Shown in pieces: positions 6,950-48,503 of a stretch of 64,000 nucleotides of DNA. A model generated the notes under the pieces. The model was not told the DNA's origin. It ran no database searches and saw only the letters and a program-made list of their open reading frames with translations. A program made the position numbers and the translations under genes. The stretch lies in NCBI RefSeq assembly GCF_007997135.1, contig NZ_VORU01000002.1, positions 124,001 to 188,000 on the forward strand. Reading direction: 5' to 3'. The stretch is from Aequorivita lipolytica. GTDB taxonomy: Bacteria; Bacteroidota; Bacteroidia; Flavobacteriales; Flavobacteriaceae. Positions within the stretch are counted from its first letter, which is position 1; the number at the start of each line of letters is the position of its first letter.

Positions 6950-7558
6950 ATGTCATTCGAATTACCAAAATTACCGTATGCATTTGATGCTTTAGAGCCT
7001 AACATAGATGCCAAAACAATGGAAATACACCACGACAAACACCACCAAGGTTACACTGATAAATTGAACGATGCTATTAAGGGCACCGATATGGAAGGAA
7101 AAACCATAGAAAATATTTTGACTAATCTTGATATGGAAAATAAAGCTGTACGTAATAACGGCGGCGGATTTTACAATCACAGCCTTTTTTGGAAAGTGAT
7201 GTCCCCCAAGGGTGGTGGAAAACCTTCGGGCGATTTGGCAAAAGCTATAGACAGCGCCTATGGGAGTTTTGAAGATTTTAAACAGAAATTTTCCGAAGCT
7301 GCCAAAACACAGTTCGGTTCAGGTTGGGCTTGGCTTTGCGTTCACAATGGCGGAAAAGTTGAAGTTTGTTCAACCCCAAACCAAGACAATCCATTGATGC
7401 CAAAAGTAGGTTGCGGCGGAACTCCAATTTTAGGATTGGACGTTTGGGAGCACGCCTATTATCTAAAATACCAAAACAAGCGTCCAGACTATGTCGGAGC
7501 GTTTTGGAATGTAATTAATTGGGAAGAAGTTACTGCTAATTACGCCAAGAATAAATAA
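6950..7558 (+). CDS. sodA: Superoxide dismutase, Mn-type signature
   Basis: 202 residues, full length for the Fe/Mn family. The enzyme dismutates superoxide to oxygen and hydrogen peroxide in the cytoplasm. Metal ligands are visible as His27 ([11 protein letters not shown]), His77 (NHSLFW), Asp164 and His168 ([12 protein letters not shown]). Two metal-type discriminators favour manganese: a glycine-rich [11 protein letters not shown] instead of the Fe-type glutamine segment, and Gln145 in NQDNPLM. Both Fe and cambialistic use remain possible. It is a single-gene unit with its own promoter and terminator. The purF side beyond the terminator is the gene-free repeat and sRNA region. Confidence 0.94.
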
Positions 7559-7612: not shown

Positions 7613-7837
7613 GATGTCATATTTGAAAAATCTAAATCATTTCAAATCAGCACGAAATATATCATGCTTGGAAATGAGTATTTTAAATTGTCTAAATACG
7701 AAAAAATAATTCCAGCGAAAAGTATTTTTGTTAAATAGAAAGCAAATTTATGCCCAAAAATAGAATCAAGCGGCTCGAAATTGAAGCTAATATTCAGATT
7801 AATTCTTTACGGTACTCAATATCCCAAAAATTTGGAG
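7613..7837. repeat. Gene-free segment ending in a degenerate copy of the 106-bp unit
   Basis: I see no gene or signal in 7613-7760. From about 7770 the bases CGGCTCG, GGTACTC and a final AT-rich stretch running into CATAAAAAAAGGC are spaced as in the 106-bp units that follow, but the rest has diverged. It looks like an older, decayed first copy of the array. Confidence 0.5.
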
Positions 7838-8155
7838 CATAAAAAAAGGCAAACAAGTGTCTGTGGGAAAAGAGAAACGGCTCGCAATAGTATTTTTATA
7901 AAGAAGGGTACTCCTTATTGCTCGCCACCCCGAAGATTTCGCGCATAAAAAAAGGCAAACAAGTGTCTGTGGGAAAAGAGAAACGGCTCGCAATAGTATT
8001 TTTATAAAGAAGGGTACTCCTTATTGCTCGCCACCCCGAAGATTTCGCGCATAAAAAAAGGCAAACAAGTGTCTGTGGGAAAAGAGAAACGGCTCGCAAT
8101 AGTATTTTTATAAAGAAGGGTACTCCTTATTGCTCGCCACCCCGAAGATTTCGCG
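7838..8155. repeat. Three exact tandem copies of a 106-bp hairpin unit
   Basis: Copies at 7838-7943, 7944-8049 and 8050-8155 read identically by eye and abut without spacers. Each begins CATAAAAAAAGGC and contains a long imperfect inverted repeat with arms GGCTCGCAATA and TATTGCTCGCC. Read on the minus strand, the arms are GGCGAGC and GCGAGCC, so the inner mismatches become tandem G-A pairs. The unit length is not a multiple of three, and the open frames across it change frame from copy to copy, so it is not coding. Perfect identity points to recent amplification. The array lies directly downstream, on the minus strand, of the sRNA terminator at 8159-8189. Confidence 0.9.
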
Positions 8156-8158
8156 CAT

Positions 8159-8189
8159 AAAAAAAGGCAAACGATGTTTGCCTTTTTTT
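8159..8189 (-). terminator. Terminator of small RNA 1 (symmetrical)
   Basis: GGCAAAC/GTTTGCC stem with a 3-base loop (8166-8182), flanked by A7 on one side and T7 on the other, so it could act in both directions. Confidence 0.75.
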
Positions 8190-8232
8190 GCCCCAAATCT
8201 ACCATGAACTTAACCTACTTATGCTAATGGTA
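8159..8232 (-). ncRNA. Candidate small RNA 1 (paralogue of the one at 8561-8636)
   Basis: Minus strand, about 75 nt. A perfect -7 box TATATTTG ends at 8237. Then come a hairpin closed by TACCAT/ATGGTA (8227-8232 with 8200-8205), an unpaired GATTTGGGGC, and a terminator hairpin GGCAAAC-ATC-GTTTGCC with seven T. The hairpin loop holds AAGTAGGTT. The second copy about 400 bp away keeps the box, the hairpin, the loop core, the unpaired segment and the terminator although other bases differ, which argues for a transcribed RNA. No coding frame fits. No known RNA family was recognised; flavobacterial Rfam motifs should be tested. Confidence 0.6.
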
Positions 8233-8236
8233 TGTT

Positions 8237-8244
8237 CAAATATA
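8237..8244 (-). promoter_or_regulatory. -7 box of small RNA 1
   Basis: TATATTTG on the minus strand, a full match to TAnnTTTG, 4 bases before the first hairpin base. The -33 region is not clear. Confidence 0.6.
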
Positions 8245-8249
8245 TGGCA

Positions 8250-8470
8250 ATAAAACATTCGAGATTATGCTTTTAGACGAATTGCTTGTTTTTTCGTTGA
8301 AAGACATATTTTATTTGTTTTCGGTCAAAAAACCATCTTTTAAATCGAAATTTTAACATTTCAGAAGTGACTTTCAAACGAATTTTAGTAGAAAAGAGTT
8401 TAGCAAGAACTTATTTTAGATTTATAAATCTTAGGAATACTTGAATTAGGAATTTGAAAACTTGACAAAA
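8250..8470. other. Gene-free spacer between the two sRNA loci
   Basis: AT-rich sequence in which I see no open frame of note, no hairpin and no promoter pair beyond those listed separately. Confidence 0.4.
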
Positions 8471-8485
8471 GCTTTAGTAAAAGAT

Positions 8486-8558
8486 GGGAAACGGCTCGCG
8501 AGAAAACGGAACGAACAATAGAGATTCCAAAGGCTCGCCACACCCCGCATTTGGTTCA
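8486..8558 (-). repeat. Diverged single copy of the G-A stem unit
   Basis: On the minus strand this follows the terminator of small RNA 2, just as the 106-bp array follows small RNA 1. It begins with an ATG, has GCGGGGTGTGGCGAGC, a different loop, and then GCGAGCCGTTTCCC. The pairing arms GGCGAGC and GCGAGCC are kept while the loop is unrelated to that of the 106-bp units, so the stem seems to be the conserved part. Confidence 0.6.
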
Positions 8559-8560
8559 TG

Positions 8561-8590
8561 AAAAAAGGCAGACCTAAGTCTACCTTTTTT
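8561..8590 (-). terminator. Terminator of small RNA 2
   Basis: Stem GGTAGAC/GTCTGCC with one mismatch (8567-8573 and 8578-8584), four-base loop, six A before and six T after; also usable for purF transcripts. Confidence 0.65.
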
Positions 8591-8636
8591 GCCCCAAATC
8601 TTACCATAGACCTAACCTACTTACGCCTTATGGTAA
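8561..8636 (-). ncRNA. Candidate small RNA 2 (paralogue of the one at 8159-8232)
   Basis: Minus strand, about 76 nt, beginning 110 bases after the purF stop. -7 box TATATTTG (8640-8647), hairpin with an 8-bp stem TTACCATA/TATGGTAA (8629-8636 with 8601-8608), loop containing GTAAGTAGGTTAGG, unpaired AGATTTGGGGC, then the terminator. The stem is two base pairs longer than in copy 1 with both sides changed together. Its perfect -7 box suggests independent transcription rather than a purF 3' tail, though processing from a purF readthrough transcript cannot be excluded. Confidence 0.6.
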
Positions 8637-8639
8637 GCG

Positions 8640-8647
8640 CAAATATA
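8640..8647 (-). promoter_or_regulatory. -7 box of small RNA 2
   Basis: TATATTTG on the minus strand; a TTTT about 17 bases upstream could serve as a weak -33 element. The same box precedes the paralogue. Confidence 0.6.
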
Positions 8648-8745
8648 ATTTAAGTTTAGGCACTAAAACAGTGTTAATCAACAATTTCGATTAAGTGGAT
8701 TGGGTTTCCGATAAACGGTAAAGGCTGTGTTAAAATTTAAAGAAT

Positions 8746-18271: not shown

Positions 18272-19642
18272 TTATTCTTTTATAACTTTTTTTACGAGTT
18301 CTCCGCTATCGGTTGTTATTGTTAAAAAATAAATGCCGCTTTGAAGGTTTGTAATATCCACTTCCTGAATATTCCCGTTTTGTTGAAGAACCTTTTTACC
18401 CAAAATATCAAAAACGCTAGCACCTACAATGTTTTCAGTTTTTGAATCTATAAAGACCAAACCATTTGTAGGATTGGGGTAGATTTTTACAGTATCTAAT
18501 TGGTTCTCATCAATCCCAATAATTGTCATGTTTTCATACCAAGCTATTTTATCATCATTTTGGGATGCAGAAATTACGTCAATGTCACCATCGTTGTCAA
18601 TATCAGCAGCATACACATGGCGGGGAAATTGAACTTCTGTTGTTATTACGTTTTTCGTTCCATAAGTGCCTTGCCCGTCTAAATTTTCAAACCGTACCAC
18701 TTCTCCTCCAAAAGTTTCGGCAAGGGTAGATAAAACATCATTATCGCCATCATTGTCAAGATCTGCCACATAAACAGTCCAAGCACTGTCTAATGTATTT
18801 GTAATTACAATTTTTGGCCCGAAATTACCAAGCCCATCTATGTTTTCATACCAAGCCACTTCATTGTCTCCTGGAGATGCTGAAAAAACATCCATATCAT
18901 TATCTCCATCGGCATCAGCGACAAAGATTCCATTTGAATATGAGGCAAAATCGCGAATAACACGTCGCGAGCCAAAGTTGCCCAAACCATCTAAGTTTTC
19001 ATACCAGAATATTTTTGCAACATCTGGGGCATTCCCGTTGCCCACCACATCAAGATCTCCATCGCCGTCCATATCGGCAGCCACTACGGAGCGTGAATTG
19101 ACCAGGTTGTCATCTATAATTATTCTAAAGCTAAAATCTCCGCTGCCATCAAGGTTTTCGTGCCAAGCCAAGCCCGAACCATCAGATGCCGAAACAACAT
19201 CATTATCGCCATCACCATCCAAATCGATCGCTATGACCGAAAAACCGCCATCGGCATTTCCAGCGATTCCTATTTCTGGACCGAAATTCCCAAGACCATC
19301 TAAATTTTCGTACCATACCACGCGGTCTAAGGAAGAAGATACTCCCAATACGTCAATATCGCCATCATTATCCAGATCCGCCGCGTATATTGCTTTTGTT
19401 TCACTAAGAAGTCCTATTAGGTTCAAAGAGCTAAAAGTGCCATTACCGTCCATATTTCGATACCAAGCAATATTATTTTTAAATCTTGCGGCAGATAAAA
19501 TATCTAATTTTCCATCCCCGTCTATATCTGCCGTAAAAACTTGAACCGGAAGCTCTGCCTCTGTAGAAATTATTTGTTGCGGACCAAACTGTGAATATCC
19601 ATTAAAAAATAATAATGGTATAAAAATCAATATATATCTCAT
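18272..19642 (-). CDS. Secreted FG-GAP/VCBS repeat protein with T9SS sorting domain
   Basis: 456 residues. Signal peptide 1-18 (MRYILIFIPLLFFNGYSQ). The body is about seven repeats of roughly 50 residues, each with a calcium-binding AxDxDGDxDV core followed by WYENLDGxGNFG, the FG-GAP/VCBS beta-propeller pattern. The last 70 residues (KIYPNPTNGLVFIDS ... LQSGIYFLTITTDSGELVKKVIKE) are a type A T9SS sorting domain, so the protein is exported through the outer membrane. Function unknown; adhesion or ligand binding is typical. The metalloprotease gene upstream is also for an exported protein, but a terminator separates them. Confidence 0.9.
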   Translation of the reverse strand: MRYILIFIPLLFFNGYSQFGPQQIISTEAELPVQVFTADIDGDGKLDILSAARFKNNIAWYRNMDGNGTFSSLNLIGLLSETKAIYAADLDNDGDIDVLGVSSSLDRVVWYENLDGLGNFGPEIGIAGNADGGFSVIAIDLDGDGDNDVVSASDGSGLAWHENLDGSGDFSFRIIIDDNLVNSRSVVAADMDGDGDLDVVGNGNAPDVAKIFWYENLDGLGNFGSRRVIRDFASYSNGIFVADADGDNDMDVFSASPGDNEVAWYENIDGLGNFGPKIVITNTLDSAWTVYVADLDNDGDNDVLSTLAETFGGEVVRFENLDGQGTYGTKNVITTEVQFPRHVYAADIDNDGDIDVISASQNDDKIAWYENMTIIGIDENQLDTVKIYPNPTNGLVFIDSKTENIVGASVFDILGKKVLQQNGNIQEVDITNLQSGIYFLTITTDSGELVKKVIKE

Positions 19643-19698: not shown

Positions 19699-21051
19699 TT
19701 AATTTTCCTTAAAAATAATATCCTGATCTGTAGCTCCGTCAAGATAATTCTTTTCTACTTTATAAAGACCGGGGTTTAACTCATTAATTAAAGTTGGGTG
19801 GTTTATGCCTAAGGAATCCTTTGGTGTAATGGTAATATTGGAATTTAAAACACCATCATTAAATCTAGTCACGCTTCCCCATGCTGGCTTGTTATTGTAG
19901 TTGTCATAACATCTTCGTGTTAATTGACCATTGGCAATACAGGGCGAGATCAAATCTATAAAGATGGCAGTATGGTTGGGGTGGGTTATGATACTGAAAT
20001 CTGTCTCATATTTGCTAATGGTTAAAACCGCATTGGTGTTATAATAAAAAGAGGTGTCGTTATAATCTGAAGGCAGGGGGCAATCGCAACTGCATTCCAC
20101 AAACTTATAGTCGAATCCCGGCTGGAACAAAGGTACATAATTGGCAGGGCTTCCCTGCGTACTGCTATAAAAATATTCGCCCGCATAAGGTTCGTACAAC
20201 GAGGCAACATCAGTCAAGGCAGCGTTATAATATCCTACATCAATTGCTTGCCGCATCCGTATTCCCTGTCCTGTTGAAAAATAGTGGTTCCCACCACAGG
20301 GAATATTCACCCTTTTGCCCATGGTATTTATTATATCTTCGTGGAGTATATTATATGGGGTATTGCAATTGTCTATTTCAGCACCCGAATATTCACAATT
20401 AGAATCAGTATTTGTAGGGTTAAAACCAATATTGGCAGCTGTATCTACCACTCTATCTCCAGCAGTGATTGCATTGAAACAAGTATTGTTCGGATCACGA
20501 GTCGCATTTTCGGCTGCTGAGTTGGTATGGATAAGGTCTAAATTGTGGCCAATCTCGTGTGTTAAAATTGGAGTTAACAAGCTCGCAGAACTAACACCGC
20601 AAATAAGCGATTTGTAACTCGCAATTCCTCCAAAACCGTTGGCCCAGCCAAAAGCATAAACATTAAAGGCATTTTCATCCTTATAACCATTGGCAGCGGC
20701 CCAATTGAGCATAGCGCCATATTGTCCTGCATTTTGAAGTACAAAATACCCATCGGGATCACCTGGCAATGCCGGGCTGTCAATTGCTTCATAGCCACGG
20801 TATTTAAAATATATACCAAACTTGTTATAGAGAATGTTCAAATTTGCCACTCCCTGCAAAACATCGTTCGCCCTATTGGGAAAATAATCAATACCATTAG
20901 GATGATTAATCCCCCAGAACTTAATATTAAATACTACAATTTCACAGTCATCAAAAAAATTTTCATCTGTGGAATAGCTATAAACCCCGGAAGGATCTGT
21001 GCTTGTTGGTTCGGGTGTTGCACACTCTGCATTATTCTGTTGTGCGTTCAT
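19699..21051 (-). CDS. Pappalysin-like (M43-type) zinc metalloprotease, start region frameshifted
   Basis: 450 residues from the ATG at 21051. The zinc site is HEIGHNLDLIH (third ligand in the extended HExxHxxxxxH pattern). A downstream NTMGK would be the Met-turn, and paired cysteines suggest an extracellular enzyme. From the 21051 start there is no signal peptide. An ATG at 21094 begins a signal-peptide-like MKNLLLF, but in another frame. Removing one base from A6 at 21073-21078 joins it to this frame, giving a leader ending NVLFMNA before QQNN. The gene is thus frameshifted at its start, phase-variable, or affected by a sequencing error. No T9SS domain is visible at the C-terminus. Confidence 0.8.
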   Translation of the reverse strand: MNAQQNNAECATPEPTSTDPSGVYSYSTDENFFDDCEIVVFNIKFWGINHPNGIDYFPNRANDVLQGVANLNILYNKFGIYFKYRGYEAIDSPALPGDPDGYFVLQNAGQYGAMLNWAAANGYKDENAFNVYAFGWANGFGGIASYKSLICGVSSASLLTPILTHEIGHNLDLIHTNSAAENATRDPNNTCFNAITAGDRVVDTAANIGFNPTNTDSNCEYSGAEIDNCNTPYNILHEDIINTMGKRVNIPCGGNHYFSTGQGIRMRQAIDVGYYNAALTDVASLYEPYAGEYFYSSTQGSPANYVPLFQPGFDYKFVECSCDCPLPSDYNDTSFYYNTNAVLTISKYETDFSIITHPNHTAIFIDLISPCIANGQLTRRCYDNYNNKPAWGSVTRFNDGVLNSNITITPKDSLGINHPTLINELNPGLYKVEKNYLDGATDQDIIFKEN

Positions 21052-21133
21052 GAAAAGTACATTTATATGTACAAAAAAGAAGTAGGTTTTTCATAATTAA
21101 AAAGATTTGGGTTAATAATATCTTAAATATATG

Positions 21134-42211: not shown

Positions 42212-42272
42212 AACATCATGCCCCAAATTTGATGTTACCCAAATTATGCACCTACTAAAAAGCAACCTACTT
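42212..42272 (+). promoter_or_regulatory. Leader and start region of the CAP gene with two sRNA-complementary segments
   Basis: AACATCA/TGATGTT (42212-42218 and 42229-42235) form a hairpin whose loop is TGCCCCAAAT (42219-42228), the exact complement of ATTTGGGGCA in both small RNAs. AACCTACTT at 42264-42272, codons 7-9, is the exact complement of the small RNA loop core AAGTAGGTT. The order is right for one antiparallel duplex with the start codon between. Confidence 0.5.
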
Positions 42273-42755
42273 GCAATGGCATTGCTATGCCTAGTCATCA
42301 CCTCTTGCTCGAAAGAGGATTCTGTTGAAGTTGAAGCCGCTAAATATGATATTGATTTGGCTTTAGCTCAAAAAAATGACAGCCAAATGTCTTCTGAAAT
42401 TTTAAGTTTGGTAAATGACCATCGCTTGTCATTAGGCCTTTCTGCCCTCATAATAGACAATCAGTATTCTTCTGCTTTTGCTGTAAAGCACACTGAATAT
42501 ATGATTAATAAAGAACAAGTAAATCACGATAATTTCGGGTATCGCTCTGAAGGCATTAAATATCACGATGACGCTGAAGTAGTTGGCGAAAACGTAGCTT
42601 ATGGCTATGAAACTGCCGAAGCTGTAGTAAGCGCATGGTTAAACAGCCCAGGGCACAAAGCAATTATTGAAGGCAATTACACCCACACGGGTTTTGGCGT
42701 TATGAAATGTGCCAAAGGCCGTTCCTATTTCACCCAACTCTTTTATAGAAAGTAA
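42246..42755 (+). CDS. CAP domain (SCP/PR-1) lipoprotein
   Basis: 169 residues. Lipobox VITSC (Cys21). The CAP domain runs from SSEILSLVNDHRLSLGLSAL (residue ~50) through VNHDNFGYRSEG, VVGENVAYGYETAEAVVSAWLNSPGHKAIIEGNYTHTGFG to FTQLFYRK. The two histidines and acidic residues of the CAP cavity (His in VNHDNF, Glu in VGENVAY, His in SPGHKAI) are present. Envelope-exposed; the molecular role of bacterial CAP proteins is poorly known. Its leader carries the small-RNA-complementary segments listed separately. Confidence 0.92.
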   Translation: MHLLKSNLLAMALLCLVITSCSKEDSVEVEAAKYDIDLALAQKNDSQMSSEILSLVNDHRLSLGLSALIIDNQYSSAFAVKHTEYMINKEQVNHDNFGYRSEGIKYHDDAEVVGENVAYGYETAEAVVSAWLNSPGHKAIIEGNYTHTGFGVMKCAKGRSYFTQLFYRK

Positions 42756-46902: not shown

Positions 46903-48039
46903 TTAATTATAACTAACTTTTCTTAAAATACGCAGTGATTCCTTTAAAAGTTGATAGGCTTCTGCATCATAATCCCTCAAAAATTCCTTGGCTTCCTGCA
47001 ATTTTTCCTTGGCTTCCTCAAAATCGTTCAAATAACAAATAAGATAGGTTGAAGGAAGATTGCGCAAATCTTTTTCTTCGGAAGCGTTCAGCGGAATGTT
47101 CTTTTTTAATTTTTCCAGCACGGCATTATTTGAGTTGTAAATATGAAAAAGTGTCTTTTTGTTGAACCGCGGCGGCTCAAAAATAAGTCTGGAGTCCATA
47201 TTGTAAGAACCGTTTTCTTTGAAGTGAATCGTCACTTCTTCCAATGGATAATACTTAAATTGCTCGTTCAATCCTAAATGTACATATTCCACGGTTTTGA
47301 AATAATCATTGGTAAACTCAATACTCACTTCATCTAAAGCCGAATAAAATAGACGAACCTGTTCGTTAATTAACTCAATATCCACGCGGGAATAATACGT
47401 GCTGTCCCTCAATTTTTTGGGGTTACCGGCCCAGCAAACCACGAATTGCTCTTTGAAAACTTTGTAGTGACTTTCCAAATCTTTGTGCCGGTTGCTGATA
47501 AAATCCATTACACCATCCAGCGTAAGTTCAATATTATTTTTGGCGGCGTTTTCAATAGATTTTACAATTTCAGAATTTACATCCTTTATTTCAATGTCGA
47601 AATCTTTTGGCATTGATATACTGCCGTCACGAAGAAAAATAGAGCCGCCCCAGTACTTCCAAATGTTTTTGCGCAAGGATGTAATCAAACCATTGGGACG
47701 AATGGTTACCAAACCCACCACTTTGTCCGATGGTAAATTTGGAAACGCCACATTTTCATAAATGATCAAAGGAGCATTGGTGAGGTAAGCATTTACCAAG
47801 TTTTGAATTTTACTATCATCAAAAAAATCTACACCATTTATTTCATTAGTTTCATCTTCAACACCTATAACAATGAAGGAATTGTTCGCAGGATTGCTAT
47901 TGCTGAGCGCGCAAATGTGTTTCAGAAATTTTGCCTTTCCTTCTTTGGTCCCCAAATCAATTTTTCGCTTTTTATCATAGAAACTGCTCTCGTCGTTATG
48001 GGCGAGTAGGTTTTTTATAAGAAGTCTTTTGTTAATCAT
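46903..48039 (-). CDS. Schlafen AlbA_2-type putative DNA/RNA-binding protein
   Basis: 378 residues from the ATG at 48039 (MINKRLLIKNLLAHNDESSF). A longer frame back to 48117 would translate a heptamer repeat as NLQPATCNLQP and is rejected as the normal start. The N-terminal half (about 10-140) has the AlbA_2 pattern: DESSFYDKKRKIDLGTKEGKAKFLKHICALSNS and FIVIGVEDETNEINGVDFFDD. The C-terminal half is uncharacterised. Such proteins are often regulatory or nucleic-acid-binding; no ATPase motif is seen. Followed 3 bases later by a phosphatase gene. Confidence 0.82.
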   Translation of the reverse strand: MINKRLLIKNLLAHNDESSFYDKKRKIDLGTKEGKAKFLKHICALSNSNPANNSFIVIGVEDETNEINGVDFFDDSKIQNLVNAYLTNAPLIIYENVAFPNLPSDKVVGLVTIRPNGLITSLRKNIWKYWGGSIFLRDGSISMPKDFDIEIKDVNSEIVKSIENAAKNNIELTLDGVMDFISNRHKDLESHYKVFKEQFVVCWAGNPKKLRDSTYYSRVDIELINEQVRLFYSALDEVSIEFTNDYFKTVEYVHLGLNEQFKYYPLEEVTIHFKENGSYNMDSRLIFEPPRFNKKTLFHIYNSNNAVLEKLKKNIPLNASEEKDLRNLPSTYLICYLNDFEEAKEKLQEAKEFLRDYDAEAYQLLKESLRILRKVSYN

Positions 48040-48046
48040 AGTTAAA

Positions 48047-48100
48047 GGTTGCAGGTTGCAGGTTGCAGGTTGCAGGTTGCAGGTTGCAGGTTGCAGGTTA
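48047..48100. repeat. Heptamer tandem repeat, seven copies of GGTTGCA
   Basis: Units at 48047-48095 with a partial eighth to 48100, immediately upstream of the Schlafen-type gene. A related degenerate copy (ACCTGCAACCTGTAAC) is near 48525-48540. Confidence 0.9.
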
Positions 48101-48113
48101 AATGTTATTTTTT

Positions 48114-48503
48114 TCAATCATATTTAGAGCCTTTTCGGTCTGAATTTTTTAGGTAAATCATAAATGATTTTATTTTTTTACTGTTTAAAATAGCTTTTTC
48201 AGAAATTCTTTTGAAGGTTTCTTCGTCAATATGATTTCTGTCAAAGCAACGATATAATTGAGAGCGCGTTTCGCCACAGGAAGCCTTGGCAATACTTAAA
48301 AAATTAATAAACTCTCGATTCCCATCTCTTTCAAAACCTTCAGCAATATTATCCATTATTGAACCAGATGCACCATTAATTTGTTCTCGAAGTTTATAAT
48401 CTTTTAGTAACGATGTGTTTTGAATTATAACTCAAACATCTTTACAAATTTCTCTAGCCAATTGCCAAATTTCTAAATCCTCAAACCTCTCAATTTTAGC
48501 CAT
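48114..48503 (-). pseudogene. Four-helix-bundle protein (S23/IVP family) with internal stop
   Basis: From an ATG at 48503 the frame reads MAKIERFEDLEIWQLAREIC and then KDV, meets TGA at 48434-48432 (codon 24), and continues in the same frame as [17 protein letters not shown] ... [20 protein letters not shown] to the stop at 48114. Together this is a complete 129-codon member of the 23S rRNA intervening-sequence/four-helix-bundle family, broken by one nonsense codon. The 80-residue frame from 48356 is only its distal part. The family's role is unknown. Confidence 0.8.

Follow-up and report, generated by a model that had tools for sequence, protein, structure and literature searches.

Two-part complementarity to a widespread Flavobacteriaceae small RNA at start codons of exported-protein genes: a probable site in a peptidase leader of Aequorivita lipolytica

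Introduction

Small RNAs that act in trans by base pairing and block initiation of translation form a general class of regulators, and the RNAs considered here resemble it in being short, intergenic, supplied with a terminator of their own and imperfectly complementary to regions near start codons of several candidate targets. What sets them apart is that pairing is divided between two segments, one on either side of the start codon. To our knowledge, only few trans-acting small RNAs have been characterised in Bacteroidota. Bacteroidetes, to which the hosts studied here belong, are reported to be generally devoid of Shine-Dalgarno sequences (PMC3155529). A flavobacterial RNA, Rfp18 of Flavobacterium psychrophilum, is reported to be conserved beyond this species, with a homolog expressed in F. 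columnare; four metalloprotease mRNAs and an adhesin are its predicted targets, and its deletion lowered two protease mRNAs, that is, its effect was positive (PMC9723704). The family described below is also found in Flavobacterium, in at least two species among the matches listed (L254, L275). However, Rfp18 is reported to pair via its third stem-loop, whereas a single copy of the present RNA consists of a hairpin followed by a free tail and a terminator; a transcript reading through tandem copies may be built differently. Compared by description rather than by sequence, the two may be the same RNA.

The window analysed here is a 64,000-nt stretch of A. lipolytica DNA (genome G000), in which two short motifs complementary to a pair of small RNAs lie around an ATG upstream of a putative metalloprotease gene (Table 1).

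Table 1. Coordinates of the RNA genes, candidate target sites and associated genes
Feature	Position	Strand	Remarks
sRNA copy A	8160-8235	-	Hairpin, single-stranded tail GATTTGGGGC, intrinsic terminator; sRNA 1 of the preliminary description
sRNA copy B	8561-8637	-	Same layout, tail AAGATTTGGGGC; sRNA 2 of the preliminary description
FG-GAP repeat protein	18272..19642	-	With Por_Secre_tail (secretion sorting domain); downstream of the peptidase
Putative metalloprotease ORF	19699..21051	-	450 aa; HEIGHNLDLIH zinc motif; Pfam M43 sub-threshold
3' motif AACCTACTT, peptidase leader	21088-21080	-	Complementary to sRNA apical-loop segment AAGTAGGTT
ATG between both motifs	21094-21092	-	20 codons, then stop
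5' motif CCCAAATCTT, peptidase leader	21111-21102	-	Complementary to sRNA tail AAGATTTGGG
CAP leader hairpin	42212..42236	+	AACATCA / TGATGTT, CCCCAAAT in loop
Two-part site at CAP gene	42222..42272	+	CCCAAAT ... ATG (42246) ... AACCTACTT (42264-42272)
CAP-domain lipoprotein-like gene	42246..42755	+	Best supported target in the window
Small ORF match in own genome (L173)	G000:C24:408782-408804	-	

Results

Each of the two RNAs is predicted to fold into a hairpin, the free tail GAUUUGGGGC and a terminator (z -4.6 and -6.8). At the gathering score Rfam 15 gave no matches within the window; three sub-threshold matches were registered at 8100-8700, the best of them (RmaA) lying on the opposite strand and scoring 29.8 of 57 bits. 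With nothing at threshold, a known Rfam family was rejected as the identity of these RNAs. A search of papers for the core letters gave two works on cotton and one on mouse, unrelated by title. Search at the DNA level showed that 27 of 59 relatives contain the core (28 were reported, but G051 matches in the terminator only), and a model built from 42 copies detected the RNA at E <= 1e-5 in 163 of 199 Flavobacteriaceae genomes, or 162 of 198 genera, where 16 unlisted genomes were taken as lacking a match because their handles are missing in the match list. Exact-core matches listed include Aquimarina, Maribacter, Zobellia, Winogradskyella, Flagellimonas and Flavobacterium. The whole structure scored above 500 of 500 shuffles, and among the 150 best of 195 matches (80 loci) both partners have changed at 10 of the 12 pairs of the terminator helix. 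Since the loci of the corresponding alignment (A3; 80 loci of at least 118 stretches) were fetched by exact core letters, invariance of the core in it is partly conditioned by this selection. Divergent variants were sought with the same model: at E <= 1 none was found in G002, G009 and G023, and only weak matches, 16 in all, in G001, G007 and G015; the six of these that were inspected look like terminators or chance matches and contain neither core word. Thus, as far as sequence can tell, the two RNAs are genes of a family widespread in Flavobacteriaceae and have the features of trans-acting sRNAs, in being conserved, structured RNA genes that stand by themselves between other genes and end in a terminator.

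Copy number of these genes varies. Six tandem copies spaced by 200-248 nt are present in Zobellia uliginosa (L251, G028:C16:456806-458015), and other loci carry 2-5 copies. Beside the sRNA genes of the window, at 7823-8172, there are three overlapping 138-nt copies with 106-nt spacing, which repeat part of the sRNA terminator together with a GGGGTGGCGAGC / GCGAGCCGTTTC element.

The minus-strand letters of the peptidase leader (TTATTAACCCAAATCTTTTTAATTATGAAAAACCTACTTC) confirmed what the preliminary description had given for this site: the motif positions, the match of CCCAAATCTT to 10 nt of the tail of copy B and 9 nt of that of copy A, and the 13-nt gap between CCCAAATCTT and AACCTACTT around the ATG at 21094. 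In the window AAGATTTGGG occurs twice, in this leader and in copy B (expected 0.31; at least two occurrences in 4 of 100 shuffles), while AAGTAGGTT occurs six times, namely in both sRNAs, in the peptidase leader, in the CAP gene (42264) and at 7404 and 26489 (expected 0.36; six reached by none of 100 shuffles). Folding of the 126-nt leader itself is not unusual (z -0.9), and part of the 5' motif is predicted to be paired with upstream bases.

To compare start regions we used the sum of the energies of two helices (kcal/mol), which ignores the cost of hairpin opening. Among 48 window ORFs, picked from 78 by dropping overlapping ones, the CAP gene ranked first (-29.9), the peptidase second (-25.9) and the ORF at 46903-48117 third (-23.2); none of 400 dinucleotide shuffles reached the value of the CAP or peptidase start region. 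The protein encoded by the third-ranked ORF, on the minus strand, combines Schlafen AlbA_2 and DUF5929 domains.

Patterns for larger searches were defined after the window had been seen. The strict one, CCCAAAT followed after 5-35 nt by ACCTACTT (CCCAAATN{5,35}ACCTACTT), gave four matches in the 3.3-Mb own genome, with none for the control: the antisense of both sRNA genes, the CAP gene at 42246 and the peptidase leader. A looser pattern, CCCAAATCTN{0,30}ACCT, was less clear-cut, with eight matches vs four controls; these are the two sRNA genes, the peptidase leader, a small ORF, a remnant ORF and three places without a visible start. The remnant (L172, G000:C24:342140-342168, minus strand) is short and signal-peptide-like, with CCCAAATCTT...AACCTAC directly before its ATG. 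Across 28 genomes of the genus there were 81 matches, 44 of them in sRNA genes, against 10 controls in total. By reading of their contexts, 28 of the other 37 matches, in seven gene families, span a start codon and nine do not; it is thus at start codons that matches are in excess. The start-spanning matches comprise the CAP gene with 14 rows from 13 genomes, an MKFKSNLLAF protein of secreted appearance with a weak TPR match (nine genomes, one translated and the others judged by identical or near-identical letters) and five single cases: the window peptidase, G027:C5, a short ORF in G014:C68, G026:C21 and G025:C8. The first motif and the ATG overlap each other in the MKFKSNLLAF gene and in G025:C8.

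For the family of 199 genomes a pattern including the start codon (CCCAAATN{7,36}ATGN{0,30}AACCTACTT) gave 57 matches in 46 genomes vs 24 controls. Matches and controls numbered 56 vs 17 in the 163 sRNA-bearing genomes and 1 vs 7 in the 36 without the sRNA (Fisher p 6e-4, with orthologous matches treated as independent); counted by genomes, a match was present in 45 of 163 vs 1 of 36 (p 7e-4). When 29 of the 57 loci were inspected by reading, about seven had no plausible start (L139, L143, L145, L146, L148, L154, L156). It had been argued that such a pair of motifs is hard to explain by chance, and the strict counts in the own genome together with the 400 shuffles bear this out. The test proposed for chance, an equal frequency in shuffled or antisense start regions, is answered in part, in that the backward controls matched less often than the pattern did, whether in the own genome, across the genus or across the family.

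Orthologs of the CAP gene were found in 25 of 28 genus genomes. In those bearing both the sRNA and the gene, the leader contains CCCCAAAT in 21 of 21 cases and AACCTACTT in 20 of 21; only ACCTACT is present near the CAP start of G013, and G003 has the sRNA and no CAP match. The words are decayed or absent in all three near-complete genomes without a detected sRNA (G001, G015, G023). G007 (69% complete), where no sRNA was found either, keeps them; absence of its sRNA is possibly an assembly gap. Because G015 and G023 share one leader, the loss corresponds to at most two independent cases, and for the same reason, and because the sRNA-less genomes are also divergent, ancestry confounds this contrast. 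Yet G026, with a CAP identity of 69%, retains the site, and G001 (67%) does not. Conservation of complementary mRNA sites together with the sRNA was thus registered both in CAP leaders and in the family-wide contrast, uncorrected for ancestry.

The hairpin of the CAP leader was observed in 16 distinct versions, whose stems differ by some compensating changes (e.g. GACATCA/TGGTGTC) and by some mismatches, mostly in the outer two pairs; when a fixed slice was scanned at 53 loci, 39 hairpins were recovered, and that of L183, although visible in the leader comparison, was not among them. Such a hairpin with compensating changes might mean that the shared leader is bound by a protein or serves translation itself, its resemblance to the sRNA being secondary. 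We consider this very improbable, since the conserved loop is the very stretch that could pair with the sRNA tail, the same words appear at other candidate targets and their loss accompanies absence of the sRNA.

The putative metalloprotease scored 20.6 against the Pfam M43 cut-off of 23 bits and gave no match in an NCBIfam search; its zinc motif fits HExxHxxxxxH, which we take to be the Peptidase M43 motif. The ATG at 21094, flanked by the motifs according to the preliminary description, indeed sits between them but reads in a different frame from the 450-aa ORF, the first ATG of which is at 21051. In 13 homologues (L072, with another start, and the fragment L073 were dropped) the leader ATG runs into the protein in seven cases, though in L084 the frame closes after 95 codons, and does not in six, including the window copy and a paralog on contig 30. 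Intact copies of this peptidase family exist. The signal-peptide frame is broken in six of these 13 (window 21032-21094; L063-L084), and runs of five or six T are present in 12 of 13 leaders. Phase variation or gene decay are possible causes of the broken frame.

Leaders of the window type constitute six of 15 homologous peptidase leaders: G000, G006, two copies in G008, a fragment in G022, and G001. The motif pair is absent from the other nine, whose two-part energies range from -15.0 to -20.3 kcal/mol. In this comparison the own leader reaches -25.0, G006 -24.4, the copies of G008 -16.4 and -25.0, and G022 -26.1, so that pairing is strong (-24.4 to -26.1) in four of five window-type leaders from sRNA-bearing genomes, although the numbers are small. 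The weaker G008 copy has a degraded 5' motif although the sRNA is present. In G001, a genome without detected sRNA, both motifs are decayed and the energy is -14.7.

One can ask whether the CAP gene and the small ORF are real targets, while the peptidase match is an inherited coincidence of an A/T-rich leader with signal-peptide codons. Absence of the pair from nine of 15 homologous leaders would fit this, as would the Leu-rich signal-peptide start with its broken frame and the modest excess of the looser pattern over its controls. Nevertheless, such a coincidence appears rather unlikely in view of the zero strict control in the own genome, the shuffles, none of which attained the observed energy, and the decay of both motifs in G001. 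Nor is codon choice of much help to it: among the 48 window ORFs CTACTT encodes just 2 of 148 Leu-Leu pairs, which led us to reject chance codon usage as the only cause, and AACCTACTT serves one of eight Asn-Leu-Leu triplets, that one being by position the CAP gene. The caveat of common Asn-Leu-Leu codons, raised in the preliminary description, hence proved to be small. The two-part match at the peptidase is probably a real site and not chance.

Nine of the family matches carry the letters of one small ORF lying outside the window. It encodes 41-42 aa in seven inspected loci (alignment A2: L137, L149, L151, L155, L157, L130, L132; two of the seven cut to a later ATG), and its leader contains repeated words such as GCCCCAAATCTATCATGAATTTTTAACTTATGAA, to be compared with GCCCCAAATCTACCATGAACTTAACCTACTTATGC, the exact antisense of the sRNA core; about five repeat units were counted by eye in L137. 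A search with A2 at E <= 0.01 gave matches in nine of 59 relatives, several of them weak and some probably chance, and none in the own genome. Pattern search revealed there a shorter small ORF (29 aa by reading) with CCCAAATCTTACCAACTTAACCTCATATG directly at its start, and similar shorter ORFs are present in G021, G024 and G026. The gene upstream of the small ORF resembles by eye a CoA-transferase. As part of a shared pair of sRNA targets the small ORF is well supported, and it may be the chief target of the sRNA or its sponge.

Discussion

Taken together, the sRNA family and the CAP gene have a strong case and the peptidase a moderate one. The reading that we favour as reasonably likely is that the peptidase match represents a lineage-specific target site of a trans-acting Flavobacteriaceae sRNA family, which would repress initiation by a clamp formed by tail and loop. 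In this clamp CCCAAAUC of the leader would be bound by the sRNA tail (GAUUUGGGG) and codons 3-5 by the apical-loop segment (AAGUAGGUU); the start codon would then lie between the two paired stretches, the ribosome would be kept from entering and less of the exported protein would be synthesised. We infer pairing from complementarity and from co-occurrence of the sites with the sRNA, and repression from position only. The idea of a pair of targets sharing one sRNA thus stands well for the CAP gene, while the peptidase is a plausible and lineage-restricted member. An influence on the secreted proteome through the window copy of the peptidase, suggested earlier, is doubtful, and because the signal-peptide frame of this copy is disrupted, the effect of the sRNA on it may be vestigial.

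The chief rival concerns direction of the effect: the sRNA may activate or stabilise its targets. This differs from the favoured reading in direction only, and the probabilities of the two are not exclusive. The reported lowering of two metalloprotease mRNAs upon deletion of Rfp18 (PMC9723704) points this way, as does the presence of the family in the Flavobacterium species mentioned above. On the other hand, pairing on both sides of a start codon better fits a block of initiation, and Rfp18 is said to use a third stem-loop for pairing, whereas one copy of the present RNA is predicted to fold into two. Activation therefore seems improbable to us, and we retain repression by the clamp as the preferred reading. 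Only tentatively, and with more doubt than confidence, can this be extended to a scheme in which a core sRNA of Flavobacteriaceae clamps start codons of exported-protein mRNAs while a dedicated mRNA titrates the sRNA in turn, namely that of a small ORF of ~30-45 aa with a leader of up to ~5 tandem near-complete antisense copies of the sRNA core.

A family-wide sRNA that has no Rfam match, a near-invariant core and traceable targets offers a way to approach how RNA controls exported proteins within a major group of marine and freshwater bacteria, and makes start-codon pairing by two separate segments testable in laboratory strains.
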